Virus record (IMG/VR): IMGVR_UViG_3300037104_000087
Coordinates: 1-29,875 of that record
DNA length: 29,875 nt
Direction: 5' to 3' (one strand)
Origin: a virus
The position numbers were made by a program, and so were the translations under genes. The notes under the pieces were generated by a model. That model saw nothing but the letters and a program-made list of their open reading frames with translations, did no database searches and had not been told where the DNA came from. How positions within the stretch are numbered: position 1 is the stretch's first letter; each line of letters begins with the position of its first letter. Below are positions 620 to 29,564 of this stretch, piece after piece.

Positions 620-1399
620 TTATGCGTCCTCATACTTGAAAACGAGTCCGCCTGCACTTTTACGGTTATGTTTTCCTAGGCATAGTTTAATTATTGAACT
701 TATTGAAATGTTATAGTGGCGTCCCGCCTCGCTCGCGGATGAAAATTGTCTGCCATCGTCTATGCATATAATCCTGCGCGCCAATCTCATAGGGCCGGTT
801 GCGTGACGACCCTTACGATCGAGACCATTAACCACTCCTCGATCTCTCTGTTTATTTATCAAGACACGCTTGCGCCGGACCGCCAATCTTTTTTCTATGT
901 CGAGAATGCGGCGTTGTCGTTCCTTGACATCATGCATCTGATCAGAAAAAACAAAATGAACTCCGTCAGCGCTACGGTATTTCTCTCGGCATATATCGCT
1001 AACTGCCGTGACGCCCAGGCCGTATGATTTACCGGCGTGTGTTGCACTTGGAAACAACTTACCGGTCTCTAGACACAAAACAGACCGCCTATTGTGAGCT
1101 GGGACTCCCGCCATTCCCTCGCCGCCATCAGTGACATTCGCGAGATCAGCACGGGCCGCACGCCAGAATGCGATGCGCTCAATTTCTAGCGCGAACGCGT
1201 CTCCCTCAGACAGCCCGACTTGAACCATTCTCACTTCAACTGCCATCCCGAGCCGAGCGAGTTTACCTTGAATGGCCTTGTGGAAAATGTTGCGATTGTC
1301 TAGATTATTCGCTCGGCGACCCTTCCCCTTGCCGACATAGAAACATTCGTCGCGGTCAGGGCGCCAATGTTCGTAAACGTAGAACTTGTTTTCATTCAA
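620..1399 (-). CDS. GIY-YIG homing endonuclease with two NUMOD-like DNA-binding repeats
   Basis: Residues about 5 to 35 carry the GIY-YIG core: YVYEHW matches the GIY strand, FYVGKGKGRR the YIG strand plus the catalytic arginine region, and a glutamate lies in FALEIERIAFW. Two related C-terminal repeats follow, near residues 105-150 (RSVLCLETGKLFPSATHAG) and 210-259 (RRIICIDDGRQFSSASEAG). They have the NUMOD1-type pattern of a small beta pair plus helix-turn-helix used for DNA recognition. A basic linker lies between them. The start overlaps the neck-protein stop by ATGA, and the stop lies two bases before the next ATG, so the gene is translationally wedged into the virion operon. It probably encodes a free-standing homing nuclease rather than a phage function. 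Target site unknown. Confidence 0.88.
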   Translation of the reverse strand: MNENKFYVYEHWRPDRDECFYVGKGKGRRANNLDNRNIFHKAIQGKLARLGMAVEVRMVQVGLSEGDAFALEIERIAFWRAARADLANVTDGGEGMAGVPAHNRRSVLCLETGKLFPSATHAGKSYGLGVTAVSDICREKYRSADGVHFVFSDQMHDVKERQRRILDIEKRLAVRRKRVLINKQRDRGVVNGLDRKGRHATGPMRLARRIICIDDGRQFSSASEAGRHYNISISSIIKLCLGKHNRKSAGGLVFKYEDA

Positions 1400-18667: not shown

Positions 18668-18696
18668 AATATGGCACTAATGCCAAACAATGTCAA
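18668..18696 (-). promoter_or_regulatory. Sigma70-type promoter with overlapping inverted repeat
   Basis: On the minus strand a perfect TTGACA -35 box lies at the terminase large subunit stop, then a 17-base spacer and CATATT as -10. The predicted start falls at or next to the first codon of the small HTH-like gene, with no ribosome-binding site. The region has repeated TGGCA half-sites (TTGGCA, TGGCA and TGCCAA), candidates for an operator. It may drive the gene order leading to portal and head genes. Confidence 0.55.
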
Positions 18697-21401
18697 GAAG
18701 GGTAAAGCGGCTGTGGCGCACTCCCATGCCAGATTTTTGACTCCTCGATCTCGGCCAGCCTCTCCTCGGCCATTTGCAACAGCCCGCAATCGCGAAGATG
18801 TTTCAATCCTTGGCTAACAGTGTCAGGTATATCGTCGTGAGTACCCTTCGGAAATGTGGCTACCTGGTTAATAACCATGTCCGCCCATTCTCGATCAGGA
18901 GCCCATACTAACCCATAACGAACGGTTACTTCCTTATTCGTTAGTGGATCAATCTTCGTCGCTGGGGCAAAAACAGTTTGAACCGCATACATCCTAGCTG
19001 TTTTGTCGCCGTGCGGTGTAATTAACTGTACCATAAACTCACCGGCCGACAGAGATCGTCGTAATTCAGCCTCTAATGGCTTTCCCGCGGCTGTATTTTC
19101 AATGATTAACTTGTCAACCTTAAACTTCCGACACGTTTTTACGGTTTCGATTACCAGCTCTGGAAACTCTAGTCTCTTTTGCCAAGCCATCATCAGCATG
19201 ACATTCGGCGGACCCTCACGGTAGACGCGCTCGATTTGGGTCGCTGTGCCGTAACGGTTGACCATGTTAGTGGCCGCCGCCTTACCATCCGTGGAGAAAA
19301 CCCCCCAAACTGTTAATGCGCTGTAATCATTCTCTTGTTTGGTCGTGTACGCGGTATCCAGGCTCGCCAAGACGTAATCCATTGGCGGGAAGGCATCCTC
19401 GACCCACGTCTGCCACCATTCCCGCTTGATAATGCCGCCCCCACGCGGCTCGGGACGCTGCTGATACTGGCCGGCCCACAAGAATGGATGAGCCCGGAAG
19501 GGGTGGAGAACGCTTTCAGGATAGCGCTCTTCCCATGCCAGCTCGCCGTCTTCGGTTCGCGGGTCGGACCAGCCAAGCGAAGTCACGCATCGCCGATCTT
19601 TCTCGAACTCCATCGGCACATTGAAATGCACGTAGTCTGGATACTCGTCTAATATCAACCCACTAACGTCGGATTCGTGAACCCGCTGGCCCAAGACCAC
19701 GATAGCATCTCGCCCCAAATTGTTGAGGCGGTTTTGCATGGATTCCTTGAACCACGTGCATGTCCCGACACGAATGGTTTCCGATTCTGCCTCTTTAACC
19801 TTGTGCAAATCGTCAGCTAAAATCCGATTGCCGCGCTCGCCAGTGCCAACGCCCCCAACCGAGGATGCGTATTTCCAACCCCGTTTGGAGTTCGAGACGC
19901 GCCCGATGCCGTCTTTGGTGATCGACACCCGGTTGCCATAAAGCGACTGATATTTCTCGCTTTGGATGAGATAGAGAAACTTTTCGTTATCTCGCTCTGT
20001 CAAATCAGACGAGTAACTAAATGATACATAACGATAATCTGGTCTGTCGAGCGGCCCCCATTCCCACGCCGGCCAAAACACGTTGAGCAGCATCGAATTG
20101 TGGACGGCAATGTCGCCGGCAGTGAAACTATGATCTTCGTTCACTCTCAAACAGCGGCATTCTCCGGGGCCGCCATCATCAATAGATACGATCTCATCCT
20201 CAAACAGCGGACCTCGATCGAATGTTTGATAGACAAGAGGAAGAAGCGGGGCTTTCTTTCGCGGGCATAAGCCGGGCAATTCTCGGAACTTGACCGCATT
20301 ACCATGCGTCGCTGAAAACACATCCCATGAGTGATACATTCCGCCGGGCTGCCGGCGCGTTACCATCGGCCTTGACTTCTTCCGCAGGCGGGCGTGGATA
20401 CCTAGCCGCAAAAGAGCGTGTTGGATGTCCTTAGCTAGCTCAGCCCCGACAGTCGTGCAGGAGGCCATGTGCAGGTCGCCACGGGCGCGCTTGTGTCTTA
20501 TCTTAATCATGCCGTCGCATGACCAATATGCGCCAATGAAATTTGCTATTGTCTCCGCATCTGACCCGAGCACAAGAGGCGGTATTCGCTTCGTATAACT
20601 GCTCTTTTGAAACAGCCCGTGCTTCGCGAGCCAGCCGAGCGAGCCGCGAAGGCCAATCAATGTGGCCTTAGCATTCTTTGCCTTGGCCGAAGGCGACGGT
20701 TCGCGCCGACCAGTGATAAACCCGCAAGCCGCCGCACACCGTTCGAAATCTTCTAATACGTCTCCGTCGGCGTTGGTAAAGCTCGGCGAGTTTGTTAGCG
20801 AACCATCCCCTACCAGATAGCCGAGCAGTCTAGCCTCTTCGGGAGAAACAAGCGCCCTCATACCCTCTTCAATTGGGCTGACGGCAGCAAGAATATCCCC
20901 CACTTGCAGGTCGGCTGCCGGAATCCACCCTCTCGTCGTGAGAAATGGATGAGACGGCTCAGCCCGGACTTGGCGCCCATTGGCGGTAGTTACAACAAGC
21001 GTCGGCTGCACACCCTTATCGGCGATCTTCTCAACCTCGCGAAAACGACCACGATGAGTGAGGATTTTATCGCCGACAACCACATCGCCGAGGCGAATGC
21101 GGCCCCTCTGCGTCAGAACCATTTCGTCCACGTGTACCTCCTTCATAAAACCAGGAGGTACATTTATCAGCAATCTATGGATTTGTCCACGAGAAACCGC
21201 CTCCAGGTGTTGAGCCATCCCCTCGATGCACCAGCCATCGATGAATGGCTCGACTGGCTCTAGCACGTCCCAGAAATAGCGAACGAATTCAATTAGGCCG
21301 CCCGGACGGGACTGGCGCGCGCGCTCCTGGCGTAGTTCCCTTTCGCGGTACGCCCCCGCTAGCTCTTCCTTCTCTTTGCGCGATAAAGCGATCAAGTTCA
21401 T
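18693..21401 (-). CDS. terL: Terminase large subunit containing an intein
   Basis: 902 codons; without the 348-residue intein, 554 residues, a normal length. Extein motifs: start MNLIALSRKEKEELAGAYRE, the Walker A PPGFMK broken before S436, Walker B near 526-531 (RILADD), motif III-like AIVVLGQRVHESDVSG near 566-581, and the nuclease part with YVLASLDTAYTT near 676-687, LIIENTAAGKPLEAE and HDDIPDTVSQ. The protein would be the ATP-driven DNA packaging motor with C-terminal nuclease. The start overlaps terS by about 113 bases. The ATG itself has little ribosome-binding site, so translation may couple to terS. Splicing must occur to restore the P-loop before packaging. Confidence 0.92.
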   Translation of the reverse strand: MNLIALSRKEKEELAGAYRERELRQERARQSRPGGLIEFVRYFWDVLEPVEPFIDGWCIEGMAQHLEAVSRGQIHRLLINVPPGFMKEVHVDEMVLTQRGRIRLGDVVVGDKILTHRGRFREVEKIADKGVQPTLVVTTANGRQVRAEPSHPFLTTRGWIPAADLQVGDILAAVSPIEEGMRALVSPEEARLLGYLVGDGSLTNSPSFTNADGDVLEDFERCAAACGFITGRREPSPSAKAKNAKATLIGLRGSLGWLAKHGLFQKSSYTKRIPPLVLGSDAETIANFIGAYWSCDGMIKIRHKRARGDLHMASCTTVGAELAKDIQHALLRLGIHARLRKKSRPMVTRRQPGGMYHSWDVFSATHGNAVKFRELPGLCPRKKAPLLPLVYQTFDRGPLFEDEIVSIDDGGPGECRCLRVNEDHSFTAGDIAVHNSMLLNVFWPAWEWGPLDRPDYRYVSFSYSSDLTERDNEKFLYLIQSEKYQSLYGNRVSITKDGIGRVSNSKRGWKYASSVGGVGTGERGNRILADDLHKVKEAESETIRVGTCTWFKESMQNRLNNLGRDAIVVLGQRVHESDVSGLILDEYPDYVHFNVPMEFEKDRRCVTSLGWSDPRTEDGELAWEERYPESVLHPFRAHPFLWAGQYQQRPEPRGGGIIKREWWQTWVEDAFPPMDYVLASLDTAYTTKQENDYSALTVWGVFSTDGKAAATNMVNRYGTATQIERVYREGPPNVMLMMAWQKRLEFPELVIETVKTCRKFKVDKLIIENTAAGKPLEAELRRSLSAGEFMVQLITPHGDKTARMYAVQTVFAPATKIDPLTNKEVTVRYGLVWAPDREWADMVINQVATFPKGTHDDIPDTVSQGLKHLRDCGLLQMAEERLAEIEESKIWHGSAPQPLYPS
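20097..21140 (-). other. LAGLIDADG intein within terminase large subunit
   Basis: Intein codons 88-435 of the terminase ORF. It starts EVHVDEMVLTQRGRIRLGDV, lacking the usual Cys/Ser at position 1. Block B-like VRAEPSHPFLTTRGW carries the His. The homing nuclease has two LAGLIDADG helices: LLGYLVGDGSL (about 193-202) and FIGAYWSCDG (about 288-297). The end reads CRCLRVNEDHSFTAGDIAVHN then S. Aligned with the Ssp DnaB end, Cys417 replaces the Asp of YDL, the class 3 nucleophile position in block F. His-Asn end and Ser+1 are kept. The Trp and Thr of the class 3 triad are not at the expected places (Phe, Val). Splicing is expected but unproven. Confidence 0.88.
21133..21162. repeat. Perfect 10-bp inverted repeat at the intein N-junction
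   Basis: Arms TGTACCTCCT and AGGAGGTACA with a ten-base loop. In the minus-strand mRNA the downstream arm contains AAGGAGGU, a near-perfect Shine-Dalgarno followed five bases later by GUG in frame with the intein. The first arm covers the Walker A Pro codons and the second the first intein codons. Base pairing would hide the internal start. Confidence 0.7.
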
Positions 21402-26797: not shown

Positions 26798-27028
26798 TCA
26801 ATCGCAAGGGGTAGGGGCTACCGCATCGCCGAGACGCAATGCGAATTGCTCGCCGACCTTCGGATAGTTGATCGTCCCGGGATAAGGCCCGCCGGGCCAT
26901 AGGGGCGCGCCGCGCAGCATCCACGCGATCATCGGCGGCATCACCGGGCCGACAAAGTTCGGGGCTGGCCGCCATTGAGCGTCGAGCCAGGCGTCAAGTT
27001 CGGCGGTCGTTTGCTGGCGGCGCTTCAT
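26798..27028 (-). CDS. Small protein, unknown function
   Basis: 76 residues from MKRRQQTTAELDAWLDAQWR, starting at the ATGA overlap with the DnaA-like gene stop. Pro/Trp-rich middle (PMIAWMLRGAPLWPGGPYPG) and an ending FALRLGDAVAPTPCD. An upstream in-frame start would lengthen it by 33 residues that shadow the DnaA-like gene. No family recognised. Confidence 0.55.
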   Translation of the reverse strand: MKRRQQTTAELDAWLDAQWRPAPNFVGPVMPPMIAWMLRGAPLWPGGPYPGTINYPKVGEQFALRLGDAVAPTPCD

Positions 27029-27585
27029 GCGGCCGCCGCCCCCGGCAAAAGCCTCCCGTGCCAATCGCGACTGCGGCGCGCAATCCATGCGGCGCTCGTC
27101 TCGCTGATCTTCTCGAACGAACTCCAATCGCCGTCAATGCGCCGAGCATGGGAGCGAATCGCGGACCTGACTGTCGTATGGTCGAGACGATTGAACATGC
27201 GGGCAATGCGGTCGAAGCTCACGCCAAGCTCCCGACGAACACGATATATGGCCTCAGCGCGGGCGAAACAGACCTCCACAACGCGGGATTTACCGAGAAT
27301 GTTGGCGGCAGACAATTCGTAGATCACAGCGGTTTCGGCGATGATCTCGCGCGCCCGCATCCGCTGGTAAATTCGCTCAACGGCTCGCGCCGCCCGGAAG
27401 GGTACCACTTCCGGTCCGAGCCGATCGCGGGCGCCGGCGGCGATCTCGCGCAGGCGAGTCTGACGCTTTGCCCTCACACTTACCCAATTTCGCCCAGGAG
27501 CCTTCTTTCCCCACACGCTGCGGTCGACCGGCAAAAGGGCTGTCGCCATGCTGTCGAGGGTTGGCGGGATTTCAACGAGGCTCAT
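27025..27585 (-). CDS. DnaA domain IV-like DNA-binding protein lacking AAA+
   Basis: 186 residues. Residues about 92-150 carry the DnaA C-terminal pattern: LSAANILGKSRVVEVCFARA, then a helix, then LGVSFDRIARMFNRLDHTTV and RSAIRSHARRI, where RLDHTTV matches the DnaA signature GRDHTTV. The N-terminal 90 residues are Arg-rich, without Walker motifs, so it is not a full DnaA. It could bind DnaA boxes at a phage origin, compete with or regulate host DnaA, or recruit it. Start overlaps the methyltransferase stop by ATGA. Nearby DnaT-like protein strengthens a replication role. Confidence 0.75.
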   Translation of the reverse strand: MSLVEIPPTLDSMATALLPVDRSVWGKKAPGRNWVSVRAKRQTRLREIAAGARDRLGPEVVPFRAARAVERIYQRMRAREIIAETAVIYELSAANILGKSRVVEVCFARAEAIYRVRRELGVSFDRIARMFNRLDHTTVRSAIRSHARRIDGDWSSFEKISETSAAWIARRSRDWHGRLLPGAAAA

Positions 27586-29564
27586 GACTCTACCTTTTCA
27601 ATCCGATTGGTCCGATAGTTCGGTTGGTCCGACGAAGAACTTGCAATTGTGGCCGTTGTATTTGCCCCCCCCACACAACCTGTGCCGCCGAATAGCGGCC
27701 CGTGGTCTACCGATTTTCCAGCGTTGCGGGCTTTGATGCTTTCGTGCGCACGGACCAGCGGTCCCTCGACACACAGCGCCATGCGTCGCGCAATGTCGGC
27801 GCAGTATTCGGCTTCGCGCTCAATCAAGACGGCGTTAAAACATTCTCGCCATGCCGCCTCGCCGGTTGTGCCAGTTCCGGCGAACGGATCAAGGATTGTG
27901 CCACCGGGCGGCGTCACCAAGCGGCAAAGCCATTGCATCAGGTCGACCGGTTTGACCGTCGGATGTTTGGAACCAAGCCGGTCGTCTGCATCGGCCTTGG
28001 CGCTGTAGAAAAAGCGGGAGGCGGAGCCGGAGTCGGCGCGCGGGTCTCCGCCTTCGACGCGGGCCATGCGTCCGTAAATTCCGTTTTGCCCCGCAGCGTC
28101 CGATGGCTTGCGACCGCTTGTTTTCCCTTGTTGGCCGGCGCTATCAGGGAACGCCGCCAGCACCTCCGCTGATCCGTCGTGACAAATATTGGCAGGCCAG
28201 CGGCCTAAAGACTGCCCGGCGCCCATCTTAGTGTCGCGAGATGATTGACTTCCGTAAATCCCTTTGCTGATTCCGCTTTCCGAGGAATTGCCTTTTACGA
28301 GCAATCTGTCGTCAGTCTCGATCCTTGTCGCGTCAACATTGATCGCGCCCGTCCCCCAGCGCAGCACGTTCGCCGCGACCGTTCCTTCGCTCAGGGGCTT
28401 GCGGGCGAGGCAGATCGGCTCGTGAGCGGGTTTCAGCGCGGTTCCTATTCCGTCAGGAATAATTGGTTTGCCGCACCGCTCACAATAATCCCATGCTCCG
28501 CGCTCTTGTGGCTTCGATTGTCTGGCCAAAGCTCCAGGTTCGACCTTGGATTGTTCAGCGGCGCATGATCTTTGTGATGAACGCATTCCACCCGCGTCAG
28601 CAGGCGGCCTATCCATCTTGCCATCACGAGCCGATGCTCCATCACGTAGCCGTCCGCTCGCGACATCGGGGTAAATTCCGGCGGGCAGCGAACGTATTTC
28701 ACACTCACGTAGTTGCCCCGTCTCTTGCGGTAAGTCGCTCCGCCCCTCCAAGCCGGGTTGAGGATTCCGGTTAAACCGCTCCCCGGTCGTTTGGTCCCCA
28801 GTCCATTCGCCGCATAAGGGCGAAGACGGTCTGCAAAACTCTTGCTGCGGCAAGACAGACTGCAAAACGTCGCCTCGTTCCTCTTGCGAACTGACGGAGG
28901 CCGATGCACCATCTTCCCGCAGGTCGCGCATGGAATTGACGGCGCGACCCGCTGTCCGCTGTTCGAGATCCCAATCATTACTGCCGCACACATAGGGCCG
29001 CATGTCTTGTTCCTGGTCGCCTGAAAACGGTTTTTGGGCGTCCAATTTTTGCCGCAGACCGCGCAGGTCCGAACCGCAGGAACAGCGTTCTTTCTTCGCA
29101 TCTAAGCTCTTGCCAATGTTATGAGATTTCGGAAAACCTGAACCATAATTCCAAGACAGCATATCGCGGATTTCAAAGCCCGCGTCCTCGATCGCGCAAG
29201 CGAGGCGGTGATAGGAGCGTGTCCCGCCGAAGGCGATAACATGCGCGCCCGGCTTCAAAACGCGGAGGACTTCGACCCAAAACTCAATGGCGAACGCCGT
29301 AGCGCCGTTGTCCCATTCTTTCCCCATAAACCCCTTGGCGAGACGCGTGTAACCGTCAGCGCCCTTGCGTGAGCGGTCTGAGGTCTGTGTGTTGTCGGCT
29401 TGCGATGTCTTGCCAAAGCGCTTGACGATCGAAACCAGCGCATAGGGCGCGTCGGTGATGCAGGCGTCGATGCTGTTGTCGTCGAGCGCCTTGATGACGT
29501 CCATGCAGTCGCCAGGGTAGAGAACAGCGCGACCGTCGAGAAAACGCAGTGGCGTTGTACTCAT
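27582..29564 (-). CDS. Beta-order DNA methyltransferase with overprinted insertion
   Basis: 660 residues. Motif IV DAPY at 38-41; conserved FMGKEWDNG, EVLRVLKPGAHVIAFGGTRS and DMLSWNYGSGFPKSHNIGK follow. Motif X/I region: SKHPTVKPVDLMQWLCRLVT and DPFAGTGTTGEAA at 559-571. This is the beta order of N6-adenine or N4-cytosine methyltransferases (DAPY variant of DPPY). Residues about 155-373, between the two halves where target recognition is expected, are Arg/Gly/Asp-rich and are read from the DNA of the nested HNH gene in another frame. They end next to GIGTALKPAHEPICLARKPL, the conserved restart. Without the insert it is about 441 residues, normal for the family. It may protect phage DNA or alter host methylation. 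Confidence 0.85.
   Translation of the reverse strand: MSTTPLRFLDGRAVLYPGDCMDVIKALDDNSIDACITDAPYALVSIVKRFGKTSQADNTQTSDRSRKGADGYTRLAKGFMGKEWDNGATAFAIEFWVEVLRVLKPGAHVIAFGGTRSYHRLACAIEDAGFEIRDMLSWNYGSGFPKSHNIGKSLDAKKERCSCGSDLRGLRQKLDAQKPFSGDQEQDMRPYVCGSNDWDLEQRTAGRAVNSMRDLREDGASASVSSQEERGDVLQSVLPQQEFCRPSSPLCGEWTGDQTTGERFNRNPQPGLEGRSDLPQETGQLRECEIRSLPAGIYPDVASGRLRDGASARDGKMDRPPADAGGMRSSQRSCAAEQSKVEPGALARQSKPQERGAWDYCERCGKPIIPDGIGTALKPAHEPICLARKPLSEGTVAANVLRWGTGAINVDATRIETDDRLLVKGNSSESGISKGIYGSQSSRDTKMGAGQSLGRWPANICHDGSAEVLAAFPDSAGQQGKTSGRKPSDAAGQNGIYGRMARVEGGDPRADSGSASRFFYSAKADADDRLGSKHPTVKPVDLMQWLCRLVTPPGGTILDPFAGTGTTGEAAWRECFNAVLIEREAEYCADIARRMALCVEGPLVRAHESIKARNAGKSVDHGPLFGGTGCVGGANTTATIASSSSDQPNYRTNRIEKVES
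28445..29101 (-). CDS. HNH (HNH_3) endonuclease nested in another frame of the methyltransferase
   Basis: 218 residues wholly inside the methyltransferase gene, same strand, frame shifted by one. It starts MRRKNAVPAVRTCAVCGKNW with CxxC (13-16) and CGPMC (34-38), then CATCG (58-62) and CSLSC (80-84), two zinc-finger units. The nuclease core at about 152-204 reads YVMEHRLVMARWIGRLLTRV, ECVHHKDHAPLNNPRSNLEL and WPDNRSHKSAEHG: the HNH_3 pattern with HH, Asn and late His. Such free-standing nucleases are homing-type. Ribosome-binding site is weak (AGAG). It starts just after the methyltransferase SLD and ends inside its G-x-GTALKPAHEP motif. A shadow would not show a complete domain, so the reading frame is real. 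Confidence 0.85.
   Translation of the reverse strand: MRRKNAVPAVRTCAVCGKNWTPKNRFQATRNKTCGPMCAAVMIGISNSGQRVAPSIPCATCGKMVHRPPSVRKRNEATFCSLSCRSKSFADRLRPYAANGLGTKRPGSGLTGILNPAWRGGATYRKRRGNYVSVKYVRCPPEFTPMSRADGYVMEHRLVMARWIGRLLTRVECVHHKDHAPLNNPRSNLELWPDNRSHKSAEHGIIVSGAANQLFLTE

Follow-up and report, generated by a model that had tools for sequence, protein, structure and literature searches.

Inside the gene for a phage DNA methyltransferase (MTase) lies a second complete gene, for an HNH endonuclease, read from the same strand one frame off, with the MTase frame running through it without a stop. The pair was found in a stretch of 29,875 nucleotides of viral DNA (IMG/VR record IMGVR_UViG_3300037104_000087), the whole of which is here called the window, and it recurs at the same offset in related loci. 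Taken as a whole, the sequence comparisons make it probable that a mobile gene for a homing endonuclease has been overprinted on the MTase gene that houses it and is tolerated there without splicing.

The nested gene pair

The original prediction had placed an HNH open reading frame (ORF) of 218 codons inside an MTase ORF of 660 codons, same strand, one frame off, and our analysis confirmed its coordinates. The main features are:

27582..29564, minus strand: ORF of a phage N6/N4 DNA methyltransferase, 660 codons plus stop, reading through the insert
28452..29123, minus strand: MTase linker filled by the insert, between GFPKS (codons 143-147) and GIGTALKP (codons 372-379), by comparison with insert-free MTases
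28445..29101, minus strand: nested HNH endonuclease ORF, 218 codons, opened by ATG and closed by TAG, shifted +1 against the MTase frame
28988..29065, minus strand: first zinc-finger-like unit of the HNH frame, C13xxC16...C34, C38, from the translation and common to locus L014 by alignment
28850..28930, minus strand: second zinc-finger-like unit of the HNH frame, C58xxC61...C80xxxC84, its cysteines invariant in 21 homologs
28526..28588, minus strand: HNH catalytic core ECVHHKDHAPLNNPRSNLELW, residues 172-192, its His and Asn columns invariant in 21 homologs

The MTase ORF matched Pfam N6_N4_Mtase (9e-24) and PHROG 67 (6e-61), and the best-covered named match of its product was from a Caulobacter phage. 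The first base of the HNH ORF is base 2 of MTase codon 155, a shift of one base. As predicted for the boundaries of the insert, the HNH ORF starts within the SLD codons and ends within GIGTALKP; the ends of the element are approximate rather than placed to the base, and so is the host codon of insertion. The MTase-frame translation of the insert segment matched no family in Pfam or PHROG.

The HNH protein matched several PHROG HNH endonuclease families, the best being PHROG 20891 (E=5e-14), and carries the catalytic motif of the HNH superfamily, zinc-finger-like CxxC pairs and the motif ECVHHKDHxPLNN...NLELWP. It had been predicted to be an HNH_3 protein with two zinc-finger units; the HNH assignment and the cysteine pairs stood, but the specific family did not, since the match to Pfam HNH_3 (PF13392) stayed below the cut-off (E=0.015, 15.4 bits versus a curated 24.8). 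In the predicted structure the core has a pLDDT of ~86-93, and no solved fold was matched at E <= 0.001, either by Foldseek with the predicted model or in a PDB search with the HNH profile. The ATG is preceded by a weak ribosome-binding sequence, AAGAG. Programmed frameshifting was considered as the source of the HNH protein in the window and is unlikely, since the HNH frame has a TAG immediately 5' of that ATG.

Other genes of the window deserve mention. A large ORF at 18693-21401 (minus strand), apparently a terminase large subunit, contains an in-frame LAGLIDADG intein (LAGLIDADG_3 5e-15, Intein_splicing 2e-7), and a probable GIY-YIG/I-TevI-like endonuclease gene at 620-1399 (minus strand; weak I-TevI DNA-binding match, 0.001) lies between structural genes and is the third apparent homing gene within 30 kb. 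Just downstream of the MTase gene, 27025-27585 (minus strand) encodes a protein with a DnaA C-terminal helix-turn-helix (Bac_DnaA_C 1.5e-11).

Recurrence, stop avoidance and patchy spread

A scan of viral contigs with the window HNH protein returned 23 loci, 22 of which (L014-L035) were nested in the same MTase, in the same linker and at the same offset; in all of these the MTase frame was open. A wider set of 84 loci comprised the best 80 of 210 relatives, from a scan with an alignment, and four loci from bacterial and archaeal genomes. Among these 84, the HNH gene was nested in this MTase in 80, always at offset 1, although the loci were picked by similarity to nested copies and remoter relatives may be less often nested. 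Across the 80 nested loci the host frame held 0 stops and the other forward frame 3-24; the exceptions were L111, in which the HNH gene is antisense, and L123, L145 and L146, in which no open frame surrounds it. The four genomic loci were three of an intein-like type and one, L153, of the type with paired cysteines described below, which is nested in chromosome 2 of Cupriavidus necator UYPR2.512, presumably in a prophage. Of 71 non-redundant elements the catalytic motif was found in 70, and both MTase motifs were joined in one frame in 50 of the 71 host ORFs by a simple pattern, some of the others running off the contig end. Two kinds of counter-example had been named in advance, namely MTases with the same segment but no HNH frame, and relatives with an HNH frame full of stops; element-free MTases lack the segment, and the HNH cores are free of stops in 70 of 71 elements.

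The offset makes an open host frame easy to maintain. Because the third base of each HNH codon is the first base of a host codon, a host stop arises only where an HNH codon ending in T is followed by a codon starting with AA, AG or GA (a fatal T). A C in place of this T never alters the HNH residue, so openness can always be reached with the HNH protein unchanged, and any protein could be carried at this offset with the host frame open. When the window HNH gene was recoded synonymously with the codon usage of the window, 10.1 +/- 2.7 stops appeared in the MTase frame and 0 stops never occurred in 20,000 draws, versus 0 observed across the insert and 12 in the unused forward frame, which bears out the earlier claim of a frame open beyond chance. 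On the third-base test, the window has a fatal T at 0 of 53 junctions against 13.6 expected (P ~1.6e-7).

Across the 71 non-redundant elements, T was found at 0 of 3,455 stop-prone junctions versus 2,088 of 8,738 (24%) other junctions; the expected number of stops was 878. As a control, non-nested members of the HNH family had a fatal T at 87 of 226. A second control, 67 relatives of the HNH protein of L039 that occur outside this arrangement and are mostly free-standing, gave 27.1% versus 28.8%. An open frame was an entry criterion for the nested elements, but only 4 of the 84 loci failed it, so that the criterion explains little of the stop depletion; the tests take codons as independent, with descent outside the model. 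Based on these codon counts, we concluded that the host frame of nested elements is demonstrably kept open by selection.

In a G+C-rich window with many spurious long ORFs, the nested gene might be suspected of having arisen by chance or of being a relic in decay, within an MTase segment that is ordinary linker. Against this stand the homology to PHROG HNH families, the intact ORF in the same frame in 22 of 22 close relatives, the stop-free cores and the stop avoidance already evident in the window alone. We give this reading practically no chance and regard it as refuted by the conserved dual frames.

Phage HNH genes are often carried by group I introns, and the authors who described a related insertion, the ShiLan domain (see below), also weighed the possibility of an intron (PMC11855218). 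An unrecognised self-splicing intron removed from the mRNA would, however, have no cause to shun host-frame stops, which none of the 3,455 junctions makes, and Rfam gave no group I or group II match in the window or in seven loci (L014, L097, L118 and the four non-nested exceptions). An intron was accordingly set aside as extremely unlikely. An intein in the window MTase was likewise rejected, as Pfam gave no match to a Hint or intein domain there.

The distribution of the element is clearly patchy and, as far as these trees can tell, does not track the MTase tree. When HNH presence and absence were mapped on an MTase tree built without the linkers, at least 42 changes were counted, on a FastTree topology that has long branches and is rough. 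The MTase nearest to that of the window (L038, 73%) has no insert, and L014 carries an HNH protein 67% identical to that of the window, yet its MTase is more distant than that of L038. Open frames, patchy tree and comparison of linkers all support the predicted arrangement, in which a mobile HNH gene occupies a tolerant linker and leaves the host gene open.

Several other arrangements were observed. In L071/L111 an HNH gene of the window's family lies antisense between N- and C-terminal MTase halves, and in L123 and L146 the HNH gene lies between MTase-like N- and C-terminal halves, with a host frame broken by many stops and no Rfam intron. A different HNH family occupies the same MTase linker at another offset (+2) in L232 and in L008 (Escherichia phage BUCT618, annotated as an MTase), where a flanking SKxID motif is apparently repeated. 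L040 and L236 have out-of-frame HNH genes at offset 2 in another MTase site, with repeats of a P..E....A.KP motif on the flanks, and L236 has an additional in-frame insertion that resembles an intein.

Cysteine pairs and intein-like carriers

The alternate frame had been predicted to be a disordered domain. Most of it does appear disordered, but a conserved four-cysteine motif is divided between its two ends, with the following halves in the window:

29076..29084, minus strand: MTase-frame CxC (Cys161, Cys163), which would form the N-terminal side of a clamp and is kept without change in 22 of 22 insert-bearing MTases of the clade
28461..28499, minus strand: MTase-frame GAWDYCERCGKPI, codons 356-368 (Cys361, Cys364), which would form the C-terminal side of the clamp and has the strongest host-frame constraint beyond HNH coding

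All four cysteines (C161, C163, C361 and C364) are invariant in the clade of the window. Constraint on the host frame was assessed by redrawing HNH third bases from synonymous codons in the 21 aligned elements of the first HNH scan. Host identity exceeded the expectation from synonymous recoding mainly at AWPxCGRCGKP, opposite HNH residues 202-212 (host A W P x C.. C G K P); the main other column with a small p value was HNH residue 149, and the remaining host-frame excess was modest, with shared descent contributing. Both C-terminal host cysteines are present in 21 of 21 aligned elements, although their codons, both TGC and TGT, overlie varied HNH residues (Ile, Phe, Leu, Cys, His or Gly, Asp, then Ala or Val). 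The HNH third base over these cysteines was T in 50 of 50 cases versus 15.7 expected, in a list pre-sorted for clamps, the 21 of 21 being the less biased figure. AlphaFold2 modelling of the MTase protein chain gave a pLDDT below 50 for residues 164-358 and a moderate ~60-64 at the clamp ends, which is consistent with a clamp at the base of the loop.

From these patterns we infer a zinc-binding Cys4 clamp that would shut the disordered loop at its base, and we judge it reasonably likely that the clamp is a real zinc-bound device for tolerating the insert. Cysteine pairs are absent from some insert-bearing MTases of sister clades (L118, L121, L126, L130, L134 and L147), which makes the clamp one solution and not a requirement.

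The retention of both frames in many lineages would also fit a domesticated element, in which the loop or the HNH protein would by now work for the MTase or for phage defence instead of homing. Such an element would sit poorly with the patchy presence and the empty nearest MTases, and with a host-frame constraint that falls mainly at the clamp and not across the loop; we consider domestication very unlikely, and homing the better account of the element.

It may also be asked whether the cysteines came with the element at all, or are the native zinc ribbon of one MTase subfamily into whose loop the HNH gene was inserted. Insert-free MTases have linkers of mostly 10-166 aa without Cys pairs. The exception is L219, an HNH-less MTase whose 51-aa linker reads KCTC...HICH (CxC...CH), a possible HNH-less clamp or ancestral zinc linker, and in this locus the clamp could predate the HNH gene. 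On the other side, clamp-bearing MTases are scattered on the tree (31 changes) amid cysteine-less relatives, and the C-terminal pair is encoded within the HNH ORF. Furthermore, a second element (L039 and L262) at a different MTase site, just before the LDPF.G motif, has cysteine-pair ends of its own, CPQC...CPHC and CPNC...CQKC, while the HNH protein of L039 is only a distant relative of that of the window (33% over 144 residues). A native ribbon is therefore unlikely in our estimation, and the clamp seems, from these comparisons, to travel together with the element. A search of IMG/VR for clamps without HNH, using an AWPxC..CG-like DNA pattern, returned 24 contigs, of which those previously known carry HNH and nine new ones were chance matches in unrelated frames, leaving L219 as the sole HNH-less clamp candidate.

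The same HNH family, at the same offset, was also found at about 24 loci within Hint-like insertions that lie a few codons upstream in the MTase and have the layout VYG/CLSEDTEI...DQIVSRNHRC...(HNH)...VWCVxVPTGAFVARRNGKxFxTGN/SGFPKS (slashes mark the borders). Joined halves of these insertions gave only weak Hint matches in Pfam (best, Hint_2, 5.7e-5; one of three gave none), and a joined construct, with a query that differs from L097 by one residue, matched an intein in the PDB at 3e-5. We call these carriers intein-like on the basis of motifs and of weak similarity below curated thresholds. In a quick HNH tree, one clamp group fell inside the intein clade with a support of 93, which suggests that carriers have been exchanged. 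An HNH gene in the intein-like arrangement is also present in L337, a jumbo phage record, and out-of-frame HNH genes in intein-like insertions may have been reported already. In L273, L285 and L287, HNH genes lie antisense inside apparent inteins of phage terminase-like ORFs, with the intein frame open.

Proposed explanation and known systems

We propose that the element occupies a linker where a phage DNA methyltransferase tolerates it. One frame encodes a zinc-finger HNH endonuclease, and the host frame runs without a stop through a loop of ~195 residues, mostly disordered, with the ends CxC and CxxC(G). A small amount of HNH protein would be made from the internal start codon and would cleave MTase alleles without the element, which would then be copied across by repair, while ribosomes from the MTase start would read through the insert and yield a full-length, presumably active MTase. 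Held together by zinc, the four cysteines would close the loop at its base and leave the enzyme able to fold, and splicing of RNA or protein would be unnecessary. Beside introns and inteins this would constitute a third way, in which a homing endonuclease gene is overprinted in a sense frame that can silently be kept open and its ends encode a zinc clamp in the host frame, with an HNH lineage that moves between clamp, intein-like and unclamped carriers; we lean towards this broader statement.

Overlapping genes are usually seen as a new protein invented upon an existing one. In this case a mobile protein that is itself old is repeatedly written over host sequence, with the host frame held open by selection (0 of 3,455). 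The four cysteines offer a concrete, mutable mechanism by which an unspliced insertion of 200 residues could be tolerated, and the carriers link intein-borne homing genes to homing genes without a splicing device. Automatic annotation generally picks a single frame and leaves the second unseen, and such elements are therefore probably under-counted.

Like free-standing phage HNH homing endonucleases, the window HNH protein combines an HNH motif with zinc fingers; unlike the window gene, the mostly free-standing relatives of the L039 HNH have an open overlapping frame at this offset in 0 of 67 cases. Like an intein with a homing endonuclease, the insert lies in frame within a host protein and would spread its own endonuclease, but it lacks a Hint domain, and its endonuclease is encoded out of frame rather than forming a domain of the insert. 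Pacc40 gp60, described in PMC11855218 as a divergent helicase-methylase fusion with a hidden HNH-like ORF of 160 aa, shares the hidden out-of-frame ORF in a phage methylase and, compared by description, differs in being a fusion and in the site.

The closest known system is the ShiLan domain, an insertion in mycobacteriophage DNA methylases described in 2023 (Gosselin 2023, PMC9957025) and identified in 2025 as an HNH gene out of frame with its host, for which the authors conclude homing between phages (Arsenault 2025, PMC11855218). The element had been predicted to be recurrent but unnamed; recurrent it is (80 of 84 loci, from the best 80 of 210 relatives plus four), but the kind had a name already from these two papers. 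Insertions fitting ShiLan are present in HanShotFirst, StellaBean, Optimus and Rutherferd (L001, L002, L003 and L010), and in the StellaBean record the nested HNH gene is already annotated as gp98. As in the window, the ShiLan HNH gene is out of frame, encodes zinc fingers and fills the linker of the same MTase family (GFPKS to GTALKP) with the host frame open, at the same offset (L001-L003), with a patchy spread and with no splicing element detected; its host frame has CDC...CSWCG ends and a fatal T at 0 of 55. The two HNH proteins are distant (31% over 67% of the query, E=4e-7, for that of Mantra), and the ShiLan gene encodes ~195 aa with a GTG start and a TAA stop, versus 218 aa, ATG and TAG in the window. 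PMC9957025 and PMC11855218 report no stop-avoidance statistic and, on a text search, do not mention a cysteine clamp, and the accessible text of PMC11855218 describes no intein-borne out-of-frame HNH. The window insert thus belongs to a kind already known, the ShiLan-type out-of-frame HNH insertion, to which the present analysis adds the stop-avoidance statistics, the proposed four-cysteine clamp and the related HNH genes in intein-like insertions.
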